A DNA stretch of 35,104 bases, taken from IMG/VR virus record IMGVR_UViG_3300032093_000437, positions 1 to 35,104 of that record. The stretch is one strand, 5' to 3'. Within the stretch, counting starts at the first letter, position 1. Each line of letters starts with the position of its first letter. Shown in pieces: positions 6,575-13,780 of this stretch. The stretch is from a virus. The notes below the pieces were generated by a model. It had not been told where the DNA came from, ran no database searches, and was given only the letters and a program-made list of their open reading frames with translations. A program made the translations under genes and the position numbers.

Positions 6575-8248
6575 ATGGAAACAATTCAATCATTAGTTGA
6601 ATCTGCAAACCCATGGAAATCACTTCAAAGCGACGCTGCGCGTTTAGCTAACAAGTGGGTTAAAACCGGCCTTTTGGAAGGTTTGGGTGAGGATGTCAAC
6701 CGTAACAACATGGCTTTGATGTTGGAAAACCAAGCAAAGCAATTAGTAGTAGAATCTTCTGCTACTGGAACTAACTCTTATTTCACTTCTGGAACAAATG
6801 GTGAAAACTGGGCTGGTATTGCATTACCATTAGTACGTAAGGTATTTGGTCAAATCGCTGCGAAAGAATTCGTTAGTGTTCAACCAATGAACTTACCTTC
6901 TGGTCTTGTATTCTTCTTAGATTTCCAATATGGTAACACTAAGAACCCATTCACTTCAGGTGGTTCTTTATATGGTAACCGTAATGCTTCTAGCACAACT
7001 CCATTCGCTACCCCAGCGGCTGAAGGTGGTTTATATGGCGCAGGTCGTTTTACTTACTCTACCAACCAAACATCATCTGTTAATACCTTTACAATAGGTA
7101 CAGCTGTAGCTGACTTAGCGATTTCATCAGGTTCTTGGGCTGAAGTAGGATTTGACTCAGCTTTATCAGCTTCTGCACAAGATGGTGTACGTATTAAAAA
7201 ATTCACTATCTCAGCTTCTAAATTACCAAATGCTGATCCTGAGGCTGCACGTGGGTTTATTGTTAGTGGATCTAGTTTAGGAGTTGCTAATAATTTACAA
7301 GCATTCCATAACTATAACCCAACTACTACTACTTACACATTCTTCATTACTGCTTCTACAGCTACAGCTGCTACTCAAGTATACACTGTATTCTATAACA
7401 AAGCAACTACTGATCAATATCGTGGTGATTTCGAAGATACATCTGCACCTTCATTCTCTGTACCTAACGCTGCTAGCGCTACTTCAATTTCTATCCCAGA
7501 AATTAATATCTCTATGCAATCTCAAGCTATCACTGCTAAAACTAAAAAGTTAAAAGCAGCATGGACTCCAGAATTTGCACAAGATTTGAACGCTTACCAA
7601 AACTTAGATGCTGAAGCTGAATTAACTAACATCATGAGTGAGTATATCTCTTTAGAGATCGACTTAGAAATCTTAGATATGTTAATTGAAGATGCTCCAG
7701 CAGCTAACACTGAGTACTGGTCAGCTATTAACAACAACACTTTGAATAACGCTGGAACAGATTGGACAGCTAGTTTAGGATTCTACAACACTCAAGGTGC
7801 TTGGTTCCAAACTTTAGGTACTAAAATTAACAAGATCAGTAACAAGATTCATCAGTTGACTCTTCGTGGTGGTGCTAACTTCATGGTAGTATCTCCAACT
7901 ATCTCTACAATCTTAGAATCTATCCCAGGATTTGCAGCTAACGCTAACGGTGCTGAAGATATGGAATATGCATTCGGTGTACAAAAAGCTGGTCAATTTA
8001 ACAGCCGTTACACTGTTTATAAGAACCCTTACATGACAGAAAATACTATTTTAGTAGGTTTCCGTGGTAAGCAATTCTTAGAGGCAGGTGCTGTATTCGC
8101 TCCATACATTCCGTTGATCATGACTCCTCTTATCTACGATCCAAACACCTTCACTCCACGTAAAGGATTGTTGACTCGTTTCGCTAAGAAGATGTTACGT
8201 CCTGAATTCTATGGTAAGGTTTACATCAACGGTTTGAACACCCTGTAA
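6575..8248 (+). CDS. 23: Major capsid protein, gp23-like
   Basis: This is the main shell protein. The N-terminus 'METIQSLVESANPWKSLQ' and the block 'GIALPLVRKVFGQIAAKEFV' with 'SVQPMNLPSGLVFFLDFQYG' (to residue 120) are hallmarks of gp23. Cleavage by gp21 is predicted after E60 (LVVE|SSATG), near the T4 site after residue 65. Downstream are 'EFAQDLNAYQNLDAEAEL' and 'YISLEIDLEILDMLIEDAP', typical of the HK97-fold core. The C-terminus 'LLTRFAKKMLRPEFYGKVY' also matches. Length 557 (T4: 521). Codon choice is more C-ending (AAC, TTC, ATC) than its neighbours, as expected of a very highly expressed gene. It is followed by a strong terminator. The 41-nt gap from the scaffold gene holds only A/T-rich sequence and no Shine-Dalgarno. 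Confidence 0.96.
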   Translation: METIQSLVESANPWKSLQSDAARLANKWVKTGLLEGLGEDVNRNNMALMLENQAKQLVVESSATGTNSYFTSGTNGENWAGIALPLVRKVFGQIAAKEFVSVQPMNLPSGLVFFLDFQYGNTKNPFTSGGSLYGNRNASSTTPFATPAAEGGLYGAGRFTYSTNQTSSVNTFTIGTAVADLAISSGSWAEVGFDSALSASAQDGVRIKKFTISASKLPNADPEAARGFIVSGSSLGVANNLQAFHNYNPTTTTYTFFITASTATAATQVYTVFYNKATTDQYRGDFEDTSAPSFSVPNAASATSISIPEINISMQSQAITAKTKKLKAAWTPEFAQDLNAYQNLDAEAELTNIMSEYISLEIDLEILDMLIEDAPAANTEYWSAINNNTLNNAGTDWTASLGFYNTQGAWFQTLGTKINKISNKIHQLTLRGGANFMVVSPTISTILESIPGFAANANGAEDMEYAFGVQKAGQFNSRYTVYKNPYMTENTILVGFRGKQFLEAGAVFAPYIPLIMTPLIYDPNTFTPRKGLLTRFAKKMLRPEFYGKVYINGLNTL

Positions 8249-8277
8249 GCTATCCTTAGATAATATCTAACAATTGA

Positions 8278-8301
8278 GCCCAGAGTAATCTGGGCTTTTT
8301 T
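8278..8301 (+). terminator. Intrinsic terminator after major capsid gene
   Basis: Stem GCCCAGA (8278-8284) / TCTGGGC (8289-8295), loop GTAA, then six T. It ends the scaffold-capsid transcript, and the late-type element of the next gene begins 5 nt later. Confidence 0.92.
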
Positions 8302-8305
8302 GTTG

Positions 8306-8321
8306 ATATTTATATACAAAT
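8306..8321 (+). promoter_or_regulatory. Late-type element upstream of phoH-like gene
   Basis: ATATTTATATACAAAT; the core TATTTATA at 8307-8314 ends 15 nt before the ATG at 8330. It sits immediately after a terminator, so it is the obvious candidate promoter for this gene. Confidence 0.65.
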
Positions 8322-8329
8322 AATAAGTC

Positions 8330-9025
8330 ATGACAGATTTCAATCGAAGTGAAGAGGCTCAAAAAATCTTTAAAGAAAAAAGAAAGCCTAAAAACCCAAT
8401 TAGTTTTAAAATCCAACTAAATGAAGAACAAAAAGAAGCAAAACAATTAATTTTAGACCACCCAGTCACACTATTAAAAGGTATGGCTGGATCAGGAAAA
8501 ACATTAGTTGCTTGTCAAGTAGCACTTGATTTATTGTTTAGAAAAGATATTGAACGAATCATTATTACTCGCCCTACAGTAGCAAAAGAAGAAATAGGTT
8601 TTCTACCAGGTGATTTAAAAGAAAAAATGGATCCATGGTTAGCTCCTATCTATGCTAACTTACATATGTTATATGATAAGACTAAAATAGAAAAATTAGT
8701 AGCTGATGGGCAAATAGAAATTGTGCCATTTGCATTTATGCGAGGTAGAACATTTCCCGACGCAGTAGTAATAGTAGATGAATGTCAAAATATTACTCAC
8801 GGTCAAACTGAAATGATATTAGGTCGTTTAGGTAAAGGTGGAAAAATGATATTTTGTGGAGATATAACTCAAACTGATTTAAAGCAAAAGAAAGATTCTG
8901 GAATTGGATTTTTTACTCGATTAGAAGCGGAAATTAAGGGGGTTAAAGTAGTTACTCTTAAAACTAACCATAGACACGAAATTGTAGAACCTATTCTAAA
9001 ATTATACTCAGACTATAGGGACTAA
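8330..9025 (+). CDS. phoH: PhoH-like P-loop ATPase
   Basis: A PhoH-family nucleotide-binding protein related to the N-terminal domain of superfamily 1 helicases. Its role in phage biology is unsettled. Residues 51-58 are the Walker A motif GMAGSGKT; residues 146-154 (VVIVDECQN) are Walker B with D150-E151. The family signature 'RPTVAKEEIGFLPGDLKEKM' spans 81-100, and 'CGDITQTDL' (176-184) is the third conserved block. At 231 residues it is a single compact ATPase domain without the PIN or KH extension seen in some homologs. It sits alone between a terminator and a virion gene, with its own late-type element, so it is probably made late together with capsid proteins. The start ATG 8330 is supported by the element spacing. 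Confidence 0.93.
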   Translation: MTDFNRSEEAQKIFKEKRKPKNPISFKIQLNEEQKEAKQLILDHPVTLLKGMAGSGKTLVACQVALDLLFRKDIERIIITRPTVAKEEIGFLPGDLKEKMDPWLAPIYANLHMLYDKTKIEKLVADGQIEIVPFAFMRGRTFPDAVVIVDECQNITHGQTEMILGRLGKGGKMIFCGDITQTDLKQKKDSGIGFFTRLEAEIKGVKVVTLKTNHRHEIVEPILKLYSDYRD

Positions 9026-9039
9026 TATTTATAACAAAA
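9025..9039 (+). promoter_or_regulatory. Late-type element upstream of 161-aa virion gene
   Basis: ATATTTATAACAAAA; the core at 9026-9033 ends 13 nt before the ATG at 9047. It overlaps the stop codon region of phoH, so the gene boundary is compressed around the element. Confidence 0.65.
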
Positions 9040-9046
9040 CTTACAC

Positions 9047-9532
9047 ATGGCAGACTTACTCGTAACAATACAAGAATCAATTACTCTTCCTAATAGGAAT
9101 AAAGAAATATTATCTAACACTAAAGTTATTTCTGGTATTAATCAAACCTTAAGAAGGATAGATACTATACCAACTGTTTTTAGTGGTTCTGGAGTAGAAA
9201 TTCTTCATTTTGTTGACAGTGAATCTGAACAAACTGGTGGTGGATTTGTAAAACAAGATGTTAAATATGTTAGAATTACTAATTTAGATTCTACTAATTA
9301 TAGTTTAATATATTTAATTGATACAAATGATGAAAGTGTTATTTTTAAATTAGATGCTGGTAAATCCTTGATGTTTGGTAATGCTGATTTTAATGCTACA
9401 AGTGTTAATGACTATGTTATAGAAGGAGTATGGGACCCAGATTATTATTCTAGTTTTGTTTATTACAATAGTATAAAAGCCAAAGCAATAAGTTCTAGTA
9501 TACAACTAGAATATTTTGTCGCTTCTGCTTAA
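9047..9532 (+). CDS. Beta-rich virion protein of unknown function (161 aa)
   Basis: I do not recognise a named family. The start 'MADLLVTIQESITLPN' and the alternating hydrophobic/polar pattern (for example 'YVRITNLDSTNYSLIYLI') indicate a beta-sandwich of the type common among head-decoration or fibre-attachment proteins of marine phages. There is no signal peptide, membrane segment or catalytic motif. It sits between phoH and a run of fibre genes and has its own late-type element 13 nt upstream, arguing for a structural, late-expressed product. The ending 'SIQLEYFVASA' is also strand-like. Whether it belongs to head or tail cannot be decided here. Confidence 0.7.
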   Translation: MADLLVTIQESITLPNRNKEILSNTKVISGINQTLRRIDTIPTVFSGSGVEILHFVDSESEQTGGGFVKQDVKYVRITNLDSTNYSLIYLIDTNDESVIFKLDAGKSLMFGNADFNATSVNDYVIEGVWDPDYYSSFVYYNSIKAKAISSSIQLEYFVASA

Positions 9533-9540
9533 TATATAAC

Positions 9541-9555
9541 ATATTTATAATAAAA
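9541..9555 (+). promoter_or_regulatory. Late-type element upstream of YadA-like fibre gene
   Basis: ATATTTATAATAAAA; the core at 9542-9549 ends 15 nt before the ATG at 9565. It probably also drives the first fibre cassette (10354-12016), which has no copy of its own. Confidence 0.65.
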
Positions 9556-9564
9556 ATTTAACAC

Positions 9565-10338
9565 ATGGCATTAACATATAGAGGTACTAAAGGATCTCCT
9601 TTAACCATTGAAGAAATTGATAGTAATTTTGCTTACTTTACTGGTTCACATAGTATAACTGGTTCACTTACAATAAGTGGAGCATTATATACTACTGAAC
9701 CATTACTAATAACTGGTTCATTACTACCAGTAGACTCTGGAGGAACAGCTTTAGGTGATCCTGAATTATACTTCGGAGAATTATATTTAAGTTCTGCTTC
9801 TATCAATTTTATGGGATCACCAAATAACCAAATTGCTTCTATAAAAGCGTATGGTGAAAATATGGGTGCGATATTTGGAAACGGAAATGTATTTATCGCT
9901 CCAAATATACCTAGTGGATCTAGTATTAAAAATCTTAGAGGATCATTTTCTGTAGGAACAGGTTCATACGCTATTGGAACAGGATCAGCTACATTTGGTC
10001 AATTTGTTTACGCTGGTGGTAATTATCAAACTATTGTTGGTGGTTACAATCAAGTTAACTACAGTTCAAATTCTTTTGTAATAGGTAATGGTATTAATAC
10101 TGGAAGTAGAAGTAATTTATTATTTGCCTCAGGCTCACAAGTTCAAATAACTGGTTCATTAGTAATTTCAGGATCTATAAGTGTAATTTCAGGATCTATA
10201 AATGCTGGAAATGGAACAATAGTATTCCCAGGATTAGTATTAAATAGCTATATTGATGATGCTGCGGCCGCTGCTGCTGGTATCCCAGTAGGTGGATTAT
10301 ACAGAAATGGAAGTTTTGTACAAATTAGATTAGCATAA
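9565..10338 (+). CDS. Fibre / adhesin protein with YadA-head-like repeats (257 aa)
   Basis: Likely a trimeric fibre on the virion surface. The N-terminus 'PLTIEEIDSNFAYFTGS' is a common phage-fibre opening. It is followed by Thr-Gly-Ser repeats (ITGSLTISG, LLITGSLLP). The middle, 'GTGSYAIGTGSATFGQFVYA' and 'NYQTIVGGYNQV' with 'NSFVIGNG', resembles the left-handed parallel beta-roll repeats of YadA-type heads found in many phage fibres. 'LLFASGSQVQITGSL' returns to the Ser/Gly pattern. The C-terminal 'YIDDAAAAAAGIPVGGLYRN' is a recurring fibre tip in environmental phages. There is no chaperone (S74) autoprocessing domain. The gene is directly followed by a duplicated fibre cassette. Confidence 0.8.
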   Translation: MALTYRGTKGSPLTIEEIDSNFAYFTGSHSITGSLTISGALYTTEPLLITGSLLPVDSGGTALGDPELYFGELYLSSASINFMGSPNNQIASIKAYGENMGAIFGNGNVFIAPNIPSGSSIKNLRGSFSVGTGSYAIGTGSATFGQFVYAGGNYQTIVGGYNQVNYSSNSFVIGNGINTGSRSNLLFASGSQVQITGSLVISGSISVISGSINAGNGTIVFPGLVLNSYIDDAAAAAAGIPVGGLYRNGSFVQIRLA

Positions 10339-10353
10339 AATAATTTTACATAT

Positions 10354-11622
10354 ATGTCAATACTTTCAGGCTCATTAAACCTAAATGGTAATATAGTATC
10401 TAGTGGAGATTTAACTTTTTCAAATACTAGCTCAGCTGTAGTACAAAATGTACGTACTATAACTCCAAATGGAACCTCTTCATTTGATGGGTCTAGTAAT
10501 ACAACCTCTACATTAGATTATGGAATTAACATTATATATACTGCTACATCATCTAGTTATTGTGTTAAATTTCCTCAACCTACTACTGGTAAAAGCGTTA
10601 CAGTAATTAATAAAAGTGGTATAGATATAAAAATATTCCCAAGTAATGCTGGGGGAGACATTAACGGTGGAATTGATGAATATGTTTCTATCCCATCAGA
10701 TGGAACCTCATATTTATTTAACTGCTATGAAAACCCACTACCAGGTGGGTGGTCGGTAGTATCAGCAACTGGTAATAGTTTAATATTAACTTCAGAAGCA
10801 ATTACTTCTTCATTAAGTGAATTTAACTCACCTTGGATTGGTCAATCATTTTCAGCAAGTAGACATAATGTAGGATTTATTAATAATACTATGCAAGCTA
10901 CTGGTAGTAGTATACTATCATCCCAAAATCCATGGAATTCATTAGGATCATCTGGTGGGATTTCTCAATATGGAATATATACTTATACTAGTAATTACGG
11001 TGATTATAGTAGCTTTAATGTTTTTAATCACCAACGCCCAGATAATCCATGGAAAAAACTAAATAGTATAAAAATTATAACTAATATATCAAGTAGTCTT
11101 CAAGATAATATATATTTTAGTTTAGCTCTTGGATTATCATGTGAAATATATAATGCTGGAACAAATGAAGAACCTACATACCCATGGGACGCTACAGGAA
11201 CTTGGAATAATCCAAACCCACAATGGGTTGCTTTTCGTGATGGTATTTTAACTTCTTGGGTGAACGCTAACCCAGGAAATATGGGTGCTGATATTGGAGT
11301 AGGAGCAGGAGGAATGGGTTTAAACGCGATAGCTTCAGTAACCCCAGGAACATTTACTGCTGGTCCTGATAGTCCATATTTGGCTGCTTCCCCAGGTGCC
11401 CCAGGTACACTTAAATTTTCCATGAATGTATCTCAAAATAATACTATTAGTAGTCTTGGGGCTACTAATTTAGGGATAAATTTTATAGGTAGTTTCTCTA
11501 ATTTAACAGGAACATATGATGTATATAGAGTTAAACATTGGGGCATACATATGGGTCACTATCTAAATGCACCCTTACCAAAAGTAAAACTTATTCCTAG
11601 ATATTCTATAACTTTATCTTAA
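10354..11622 (+). CDS. Fibre-like protein, cassette copy A, large gene (422 aa)
   Basis: Paralog of the product of 12081-13391. Residues 1-~150 are strongly conserved between them: 'MSILSGSLNLNGN' start, 'GKSVTVINKSGIDIKIFPSN', 'YENPLPGGWSV'. The middle (about 150-325) diverges. A second conserved block begins 'PGTFTAG' (about nt 11341) and includes 'SPYLAA', and the C-terminus again aligns ('WGIHMG' against 'WGIGIH'). The protein is Ser/Thr/Gly/Asn-rich, beta-structured and lacks signal peptide or enzyme motifs. The conserved base, variable middle and conserved end fit a receptor-binding fibre or tip. The gap from the previous gene is 15 nt without a late-type element. Function beyond virion surface protein is not established. 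Confidence 0.75.
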   Translation: MSILSGSLNLNGNIVSSGDLTFSNTSSAVVQNVRTITPNGTSSFDGSSNTTSTLDYGINIIYTATSSSYCVKFPQPTTGKSVTVINKSGIDIKIFPSNAGGDINGGIDEYVSIPSDGTSYLFNCYENPLPGGWSVVSATGNSLILTSEAITSSLSEFNSPWIGQSFSASRHNVGFINNTMQATGSSILSSQNPWNSLGSSGGISQYGIYTYTSNYGDYSSFNVFNHQRPDNPWKKLNSIKIITNISSSLQDNIYFSLALGLSCEIYNAGTNEEPTYPWDATGTWNNPNPQWVAFRDGILTSWVNANPGNMGADIGVGAGGMGLNAIASVTPGTFTAGPDSPYLAASPGAPGTLKFSMNVSQNNTISSLGATNLGINFIGSFSNLTGTYDVYRVKHWGIHMGHYLNAPLPKVKLIPRYSITLS

Positions 11623-11632
11623 ACTAAAAATA

Positions 11633-12016
11633 ATGGCATACATATCACTTTATTCAGCATCTATCTATCAGTCAGCTAGTAATGTATTGCAAATAACAGC
11701 TAGTAGTGGTGGAAAATCAACTAACGCTATTACAGGTTCATGGTCTCGTTTAACAACCGGGTCATACATGTTTGTATCATCTGGCTCATTTTCTGGAGCT
11801 TCAGGTAGTATTACTGGGAGTATGGCAATTAATGTCGCGTTATTTGCTACTGGTAGTGCGTCTTCTTACCAAGCAAATGGACTATTTGCTTATACTTCTA
11901 GATCAAATGCAAACGCTATTTTTATAAACACATACTCAGATTTTATATCTCAAACTTTGGCTGATAATGCAATTGGATCTGGATCATGTAATTTATCTAT
12001 AGGAATTAATTATTAA
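11633..12016 (+). CDS. Small Ser/Gly-rich fibre-associated protein, cassette copy A (127 aa)
   Basis: Paralog of the product of 13400-13780: both share 'SLYSASIYQSAS', 'QITAS.GGKSTN.ITGS' and 'TGSY.FVSSGSFSG', and end '..IGINY'. Very rich in Ser, Gly, Ala and Thr, and predicted beta. It starts 10 nt after the large cassette gene and always follows it, so the two products probably work together, for example as tip and connector or as fibre and its attachment. No known family is recognised. Confidence 0.72.
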   Translation: MAYISLYSASIYQSASNVLQITASSGGKSTNAITGSWSRLTTGSYMFVSSGSFSGASGSITGSMAINVALFATGSASSYQANGLFAYTSRSNANAIFINTYSDFISQTLADNAIGSGSCNLSIGINY

Positions 12017-12053
12017 GGTTATTTAAAAAAACTTTATATTTAGGGTTTTTTAC

Positions 12054-12069
12054 ATATTTATAAATAAAC
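12054..12069 (+). promoter_or_regulatory. Late-type element between the two fibre cassettes
   Basis: ATATTTATAAATAAAC; the core TATTTATA at 12055-12062 ends 18 nt before the ATG at 12081. This copy also contains the classical T4 late sequence TATAAATA in the sense direction (12059-12066), so it is two-faced. Upstream, AAAAAAC (12026-12032) / GTTTTTT (12045-12051) could form a weak A/U hairpin. Confidence 0.6.
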
Positions 12070-12080
12070 ACCTAAATAAC

Positions 12081-13391
12081 ATGTCAATACTTTCAGGCTC
12101 ATTAAATCTAAATGGTAACTTAATTGCCAGCGGAGATATATCATTCACAACATCTGGCTCAGGTGTAATCCAAACTTTAACTACCATCGCAGCTAATGGA
12201 ACTGCATCATATGCTGGATTCAGTAATACTACTGCTTCTTTAAATTTTGGTATTAATCTTATAGATTATGCTGCTTCTCAAGACTATTGTGTTAAGCTAC
12301 CTCAACCAGTTACTGGAAAAAGTGTTATAGTAATAAATAAGAGTGGTATAGATGTAAAAGTATTCCCAAGTAACATTGGAGGAGACATTAATGGAAGTAT
12401 AAATGGATTTGCTACAGTTCCATCAAATGGAACCTCATATGCTTTTAATTGCTATGAAAACCCATTACCTGGAGGATGGTCAGTATTATCAACAAATGGT
12501 ACTACTCAAACATTAATCTCAGAAGTCATTAGTGGTTCGATAGGTTCTAAAGTATACCCAGCACCTGGATGGGAGACTTCAAAAAATCAATTTGCTTTTA
12601 TAAATAATACTTTAAAAGCTAGTGGAAGTGTTATTGCTGGTGTTCCACCACAATTTAATTTTCTAGCACCAACATTTGACCCCCAATATCAAATAGGAGA
12701 TACATATAGCACTAATTATCAAAGTAATCAATGGATAACCTCTAGACAATATCCAACTGATTCTTGGAGAAGAATTAATAGTATAACTTTAGTTACTAAT
12801 ATTACAGGAAGTGCTATAGTAACAAACCAAATTGGATGTGTTATGACCCTTGGATTTGATACTCACTTTTATTTTGCTAGTGATCCAACTCTTCGCTGGA
12901 TTGGTGGATTCTGGAATAATAATACTGGTTACCCAAACGTAGACCCGGCATGGACAAACTGGTATAATAATGTTCAAACCCCATGGGCAGCAGCTAATGA
13001 TGGTAATGGATACCCAATCCAACAGGGTACTGGCGGATCAGGAATAGGTACAGTACCATCTACAGTTTCAGTTATACCAGGAACATTTACAGCTGGTGGT
13101 ATAAGCCCATATTTAGCAGCCAACCCTGGAGAACCAGGAACTGCTAAATTTACTATAAATTTGCCACAACAATATGCGGCTAATTTCTTTGGTTGGACTG
13201 ATCTTGGAGCTAGATATATAAGTTCTTTTACACCTGACCAATATTATTACAATGGAACATCTTATGTCCCAGTAGGATTATTAAACGCTTATAGTGCTAA
13301 ATGTTGGGGAATAGGAATACACAATTTCTCATCAACTCTTACTTTTCCAGATTTAAAAATTTCACCTCAATATAACGTAACCTTAAATTAA
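12081..13391 (+). CDS. Fibre-like protein, cassette copy B, large gene (436 aa)
   Basis: Paralog of 10354-11622 (see that entry for shared blocks). The first 26 nt are identical in the two copies, and residues 1-~150 align nearly without gaps. The middle (~150-325) is different: 'YQIGDTYSTNYQSNQW' and Trp/Asn/Pro-rich loops such as 'PTLRWIGGFWNNNTGYPN'. The block 'PGTFTAG' recurs at nt ~13076, again followed by 'SPYLAA'. There are no enzyme motifs. Unlike copy A it has its own late-type element. Tandem duplication followed by divergence of the central, presumably exposed, part is consistent with alternative receptor-binding proteins, but binding is inferred. Confidence 0.75.
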   Translation: MSILSGSLNLNGNLIASGDISFTTSGSGVIQTLTTIAANGTASYAGFSNTTASLNFGINLIDYAASQDYCVKLPQPVTGKSVIVINKSGIDVKVFPSNIGGDINGSINGFATVPSNGTSYAFNCYENPLPGGWSVLSTNGTTQTLISEVISGSIGSKVYPAPGWETSKNQFAFINNTLKASGSVIAGVPPQFNFLAPTFDPQYQIGDTYSTNYQSNQWITSRQYPTDSWRRINSITLVTNITGSAIVTNQIGCVMTLGFDTHFYFASDPTLRWIGGFWNNNTGYPNVDPAWTNWYNNVQTPWAAANDGNGYPIQQGTGGSGIGTVPSTVSVIPGTFTAGGISPYLAANPGEPGTAKFTINLPQQYAANFFGWTDLGARYISSFTPDQYYYNGTSYVPVGLLNAYSAKCWGIGIHNFSSTLTFPDLKISPQYNVTLN

Positions 13392-13399
13392 TAAAAATA

Positions 13400-13780
13400 A
13401 TGGCATTCTTATCACTCTACTCAGCATCTATTTACCAATCAGCTAGTACTATGGTGCAAATAACAGCCAGTACAGGTGGAAAATCTACAAATCTTATAAC
13501 AGGTTCATTCACTCGTACAGCTACTGGATCATATACATTTGTATCTTCAGGATCATTTTCAGGAAGAACAGGTAGTTACACTGGAAGTATAGTTAGTAAT
13601 ATATCTTATAACCCACAAGTTAATACTTCTTCATTCGGTAGTATTTTTGTTTCAACTTTAGATATAAATCCAAATGCATTTTATGTTTATACATTCTCTG
13701 ATATGTTAACTCAAACATTAAGTGATAGTGCTATTGAATCTGGATCATATGAGATAAATATAGGAATTAACTACTTATAA
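13400..13780 (+). CDS. Small Ser/Gly-rich fibre-associated protein, cassette copy B (126 aa)
   Basis: Paralog of 11633-12016, with the conserved first ~65 residues ('MAFLSLYSASIYQSAS', 'GGKSTNLITGSFTRTATGSY') and a conserved C-terminal pattern ('TFSDMLTQTLSDSAI...IGINYL'). The centre (residues ~67-90) differs, mirroring the large partner. It starts 8 nt after the large gene and is followed by a terminator that closes the fibre block. Function is unknown; structural by context. Confidence 0.72.
   Translation: MAFLSLYSASIYQSASTMVQITASTGGKSTNLITGSFTRTATGSYTFVSSGSFSGRTGSYTGSIVSNISYNPQVNTSSFGSIFVSTLDINPNAFYVYTFSDMLTQTLSDSAIESGSYEINIGINYL

Follow-up and report, generated by a model that had tools for sequence, protein, structure and literature searches.

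When a T4-like virus carries two similar fibre cassettes side by side, did they arise by duplication in place, or were they brought together by the swapping of fibre modules, a known route by which such viruses change what they bind? The question is raised by IMG/VR record IMGVR_UViG_3300032093_000437, which we analysed over its full 35,104 bases (positions 1–35,104, here 'the window') and in which a first-pass annotation had proposed the tandem duplication of a two-gene fibre cassette with divergent centres.

The window has a T4-like gene set (portal, protease, Gp23 capsid protein, PhoH, neck gene, sheath and tube). Judged by these genes, its source is an uncultured T4-like virus of bacteria, from a group related to Flavobacterium phages. 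Among isolated phages, the Flavobacterium phages immuto come closest by capsid protein (55%), and this relationship, together with A-rich, Shine-Dalgarno-poor gene starts, points to a host among the Bacteroidota.

A probable fibre island with two related gene pairs

Both gene pairs lie in a stretch, from a conserved 161-aa gene to the neck gene, that is best explained as a fibre island. Its features are as follows (other contigs are given L numbers throughout):

9047..9532, + strand: conserved 161-aa gene, upstream flank of the island; its homologue in Flavobacterium phage immuto lies between PhoH and the neck gene
9542..9550, + strand: late-type element TATTTATAA, 23 nt before fibre gene W
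9565..10338, + strand: W, fibre-type gene, 257 aa, with KGSPLTIEEIDSNF in its N-terminus; apparent chimera
10085..10165, no strand: putative recombination junction in W, in or adjoining a conserved RSNLLFASGSQVQITGSL stretch
10354..11622, + strand: A1, fibre/adhesin-type protein, 422 aa, without a late-type element of its own
11633..12016, + strand: B1, obligate partner of A1, 127 aa, predicted all-beta
12055..12063, + strand: late-type element TATTTATAA, 26 nt before A2
12081..13391, + strand: A2, fibre/adhesin-type protein, 436 aa, orthologue of the A gene of L013 and L011 (81%)
13400..13780, + strand: B2, obligate partner of A2, 126 aa
13863..15032, + strand: neck/head-completion gene (PHROG 211, head-tail adaptor), downstream flank of the island

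In these flanks the window is very similar to its close relative L013 (neck 97%, PhoH 98.7%, 161-aa gene 98%). Downstream, L013 (11477–12178) and L011 (3390–4091) each have an additional 233-aa gene that separates the homologues of window genes 15032 and 15541.

The four reading frames of the two pairs were recovered with exactly the boundaries that the first-pass annotation had given them, and they are indeed paired paralogues: A1 and A2 share 49% protein identity, B1 and B2 58%, and three DNA direct repeats of 197, 261 and 209 nt (73–78% identity; spacing 1727, 1727 and 1767 nt), far beyond chance, link the pairs. The fibre context proposed for both is likewise supported. Segment by segment, identity runs 59%, 74%, 31%, 35%, 22%, 66% and 32% along A1/A2, and 79%, 69%, 21% and 57% along B1/B2, which bears out the claim of strong N-terminal parts and divergent centres (segments at 21–35%). 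The accompanying claim that the ends are conserved again applies to A only in part, as a conserved patch (residues 326–360) is followed by a final stretch of about 60 residues at 32%. The annotation had also set divergent middles against middles conserved in structure; because the centres of A1 and A2 align over their whole length, as diverged homologues and not unrelated inserts, such conservation is, as far as sequence goes, partly what we found.

Ancestry of the two pairs

The duplication itself was not upheld. A1-B1 comes closest to a cassette that a distant phage, L008, has in single copy (62%). A2-B2 is orthologous to the cassette of the close relative L013 (81%), which at the place of A1-B1 carries an unrelated fibre-like 429-aa gene. 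In the tree of A, A1 groups with the L008 gene (support 96/95) and A2 with those of L013 and L011 (99/97). Approximately unbiased (AU) tests reject a single clade of A1 and A2 (p = 1.7e-6) and of B1 and B2 (p = 3.9e-17). Since each pair has closer relatives than the other pair, and both genes reject their sister grouping, tandem duplication is unsupported, and a recent one is ruled out. Each half of A taken separately also rejects the grouping (N part p = 7e-4, C part p = 1e-8), so the N-terminal parts split as well and gene conversion between them can be dismissed. The contigs L009 and L010 also have two pairs, the first of which belongs to another branch; a single duplication common to the window and L009/L010, in which the first-slot copies would have one origin, is rejected too (AU p = 0.0014 and 8.8e-5). 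By comparison with relatives, the pairs are distant cousins of separate ancestry, most probably joined by the swapping of whole fibre modules.

Could the duplication instead be old, having taken place in this phage lineage and been followed, without any transfer between lineages, by divergence and by losses in relatives? The pairs are adjacent and alike in order and strand, a larger eight-row clade of A contains both copies with full support, and rejection is no more than borderline (p = 0.05) for a grouping that joins A1 to the A2 orthologues and leaves out L008 and L012. However, the sister of A1 is an A gene from a phage with a different genome arrangement, the affinity of W changes right next to A1 (see below), and the first cassette of L009/L010 differs, with a common slot-1 clade rejected. 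We therefore regard an old duplication as unlikely and prefer module exchange.

W and the probable movement of a block

The gene preceding A1 appears, from shifts in identity, to be chimeric. Residues 1 to about 182 of W match L013, L014 and L009, mostly at 66–97%, although W is without some 50 residues present in the L013 form, whereas its last 65 residues, the tip, resemble L008 and L043 (76–80%), and also L012. At the DNA level (40-nt bins), the closer relative switches from L013 to L008 at about 10085–10165. A tree test on the 65 columns of the tail, which are too few for a test of their own, could not reject a grouping with L013 (p = 0.23). The gene that follows differs with the form of W: W forms with GIPVGGLYRNGSF-type tips are directly followed by A-B, and the other W form by an MSTLK-type gene.

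Given an L008-like tip on an L013-like first part, the simplest account is that the tip and A1-B1 probably moved as one block. In L008, W-A-B is found as a unit with queuosine/MazG genes on one side and DNA polymerase on the other; L015 and L043 have a similar neighbourhood. The W-A-B form is present in L012 as well, so the direction of transfer cannot be polarised. The genes just upstream of the unit in L008 (672–6023) include those of the queuosine pathway (QueC, QueD, QueE and GTP cyclohydrolase) and a MazG-like gene.

Late-type elements and expression of the pairs

TATTTATAA precedes nine of the 30 gene starts in the window, against 0.24 expected at random positions; the nine sites, all on the + strand (e.g. 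9026, 9542, 12055, 13841, 16719, 18487 and 29956), lie 20–34 nt before gene starts, and the element is probably a late promoter of this phage group. The copy at 9542..9550 would then probably mark the start of a W-A1-B1 transcript. The observation that, within the two pairs, only the second has its own element stands: TATTTATAA was found before A2, and was absent when looked for before A1, B1 and B2.

This asymmetry could be taken to mean that the cassettes switch, with one pair expressed or assembled at a time. Against such switching, pair 1 closely follows W behind the upstream element, so that read-through is expected; moreover, both pairs point in the same direction, the classified neighbours include no recombinase gene, and the arrangement is unchanged in three near-identical window-type contigs. 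We consider switching very improbable. As the W element could serve pair 1 and the element before A2 could serve pair 2, both could be displayed, and two receptor types in one particle, as the first-pass annotation had suggested, are possible.

A and B as an obligate pair

The cassette occurs in about 26 other IMG/VR contigs, and B stands directly behind A in 26 of the 26 that continue past A, mostly with a gap of 4–27 nt. Distances among A and among B proteins are strongly correlated (Mantel r = 0.93, reached by none of 5000 permutations), also after allowing for the neck protein (partial r = 0.89). A and B are thus a co-inherited, obligately adjacent pair: a fibre gene with a small partner gene at once behind it, inherited together, as in the module type of Alteromonas phages A5 and V22. 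In L041, the A gene is split between two overlapping frames (7503–8897 and 8779–9147), by a frameshift or a sequencing error.

At the level of families, A and B are by all sequence comparisons undescribed, while module exchange itself is known in kind. None of A1, B1, A2 and B2 matched PHROGs or Pfam at E 0.1, including the gp37/gp38 families of T4-like long tail fibre tip proteins, and other family members gave only unnamed or marginal matches. Family profiles of A and B found no match of note among PDB sequences; a tblastn search of 50,697 phage records with three A proteins returned nothing, as did an A profile scan of species genomes. B was also considered as a relative of some part of A, but hhalign found nothing (probability 0.8%). 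AlphaFold predicts B as all-beta (mean pLDDT 70.3, moderate). For A the mean is 61.6, with an unreliable N-terminal part and, from about residue 230, a beta-rich C-terminal domain mostly at 75–90 per block.

Allelic differences among near-identical phages

L009 and L010 have about 100% identity across W, a 357-aa gene, A1 and B1, then fall to 58–95% DNA identity in A2 and 71–86% in B2, and return to 93–100% in the neck genes. Within the island compared, their allelic divergence is thus confined to A2-B2 and, on this profile, means that the variable part of one cassette was either replaced or diverged rapidly. Whether the C part of A2 arose separately in L009 and L010 was put to a tree-based test, without a significant result (p = 0.12); it is the identity profile, then, that carries the allelic claim. 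Such exchange lends indirect support to a diversifying surface role for the cassettes.

Two other stretches vary in a similar way. Within gp23 (6575–8248), positions 6980–7460 of the window share 58–85% DNA identity with L013, most flanking stretches being at 93–100%; this middle stretch is likely a variable surface part. In the tail sheath, L009 (10366–11500) differs from L010 in the middle, with large gaps, in a region otherwise near-identical. These stretches may be other instances of surface variation, and because the capsid protein and the sheath also diverge internally, variability alone is no proof of receptor binding.

This bears on whether A and B decorate the head or neck as Hoc- or whisker-like fibres instead of serving as receptor-binding tail fibres, their variability being general surface variation. 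The divergent stretches in capsid protein and sheath are consistent with it, as is the place of the island, which has the capsid/PhoH genes on one side and the neck gene on the other. For fibritin/whiskers (wac), one would expect a gene next to the neck gene, which fits, and a coiled-coil shaft with foldon; the A model is beta-rich with one longer helix, with low confidence in the N part. Yet the module lies elsewhere in other phages, before the sheath gene (L016–L018) or beside DNA metabolism genes (L008), and among tail fibres there is precedent for a small partner gene co-inherited with the fibre gene (PMC10579305). A decoration role seems to us somewhat unlikely.

A proposed exchangeable fibre module

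Our favoured reading, which we consider fairly probable, is that W-A-B is an exchangeable virion-fibre module, in which A is a variable adhesin-type subunit and B its cognate partner, and which changes by exchange, not duplication. A would be a fibre subunit, presumably in the virion, whose N-terminal part is conserved and whose C-terminal part, of adhesin type, diverges fast and binds a surface; B would be a dedicated small beta-protein matched to A, most likely a tip or capping/chaperone subunit; and W would be the fibre piece preceding A. Homologous recombination in conserved stretches would swap tips and pairs, altering copy number and the allele at each place, with no duplication in place. 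The W tip and A1-B1 would have come as one block from an L008-like source, and the resident A2-B2 would have stayed beside it with a late-type element of its own. Were both pairs expressed, a particle could have fibres of two types. A bolder and more tentative version holds that A-B is a new adhesin–partner family, so far only in uncultured phages, with two separately acquired pairs displayed at once, one swapping alleles and the other fixed; if so, binding specificity would be renewed without loss of the old host.

Known systems resemble this one in part. Alteromonas phages A5 and V22 have a tail fibre and cognate chaperone module in common (PMC10579305), and, much as proposed here, a small cognate partner gene accompanies the fibre gene, the two forming a host-recognition module moved between distant phages. 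In the window, two such pairs stand side by side, no sequence relation to that module is apparent, and B is only a candidate chaperone. The T5-like phages DT57C and DT571/2 have branched lateral fibres of LtfA and LtfB, of which LtfA differs and LtfB is identical (PMC4728585), much as L009 and L010, also close relatives, differ in one fibre gene (A2) with the other (A1) unchanged. However, LtfA and LtfB belong to the T5 type, in E. coli phages whose receptors have been tested, whereas receptor binding by A and B is putative. Ackermannviridae carry multiple tail spikes that are gained, lost and recombined (PMC11414711), and thus, like the window (putatively), several binding-protein genes in one phage; their spikes form a branched complex, whereas A has no recognised spike or enzyme domain. 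The closest isolate by capsid protein, Flavobacterium phage vB_FspM_immuto (Immutovirus), shares the homologous 161-aa and neck genes and has no gene of the A or B family in the structural region compared.

An apparent duplication thus becomes a readable case of fibre-module exchange. It centres on an obligate two-gene adhesin-type unit, of undescribed families, that shows both apparent block movement and allele differences between near-identical phages, and the A-B pairing rule is testable. For an uncultured T4-like group related to Flavobacterium phages, the locus marks candidate host-range genes.
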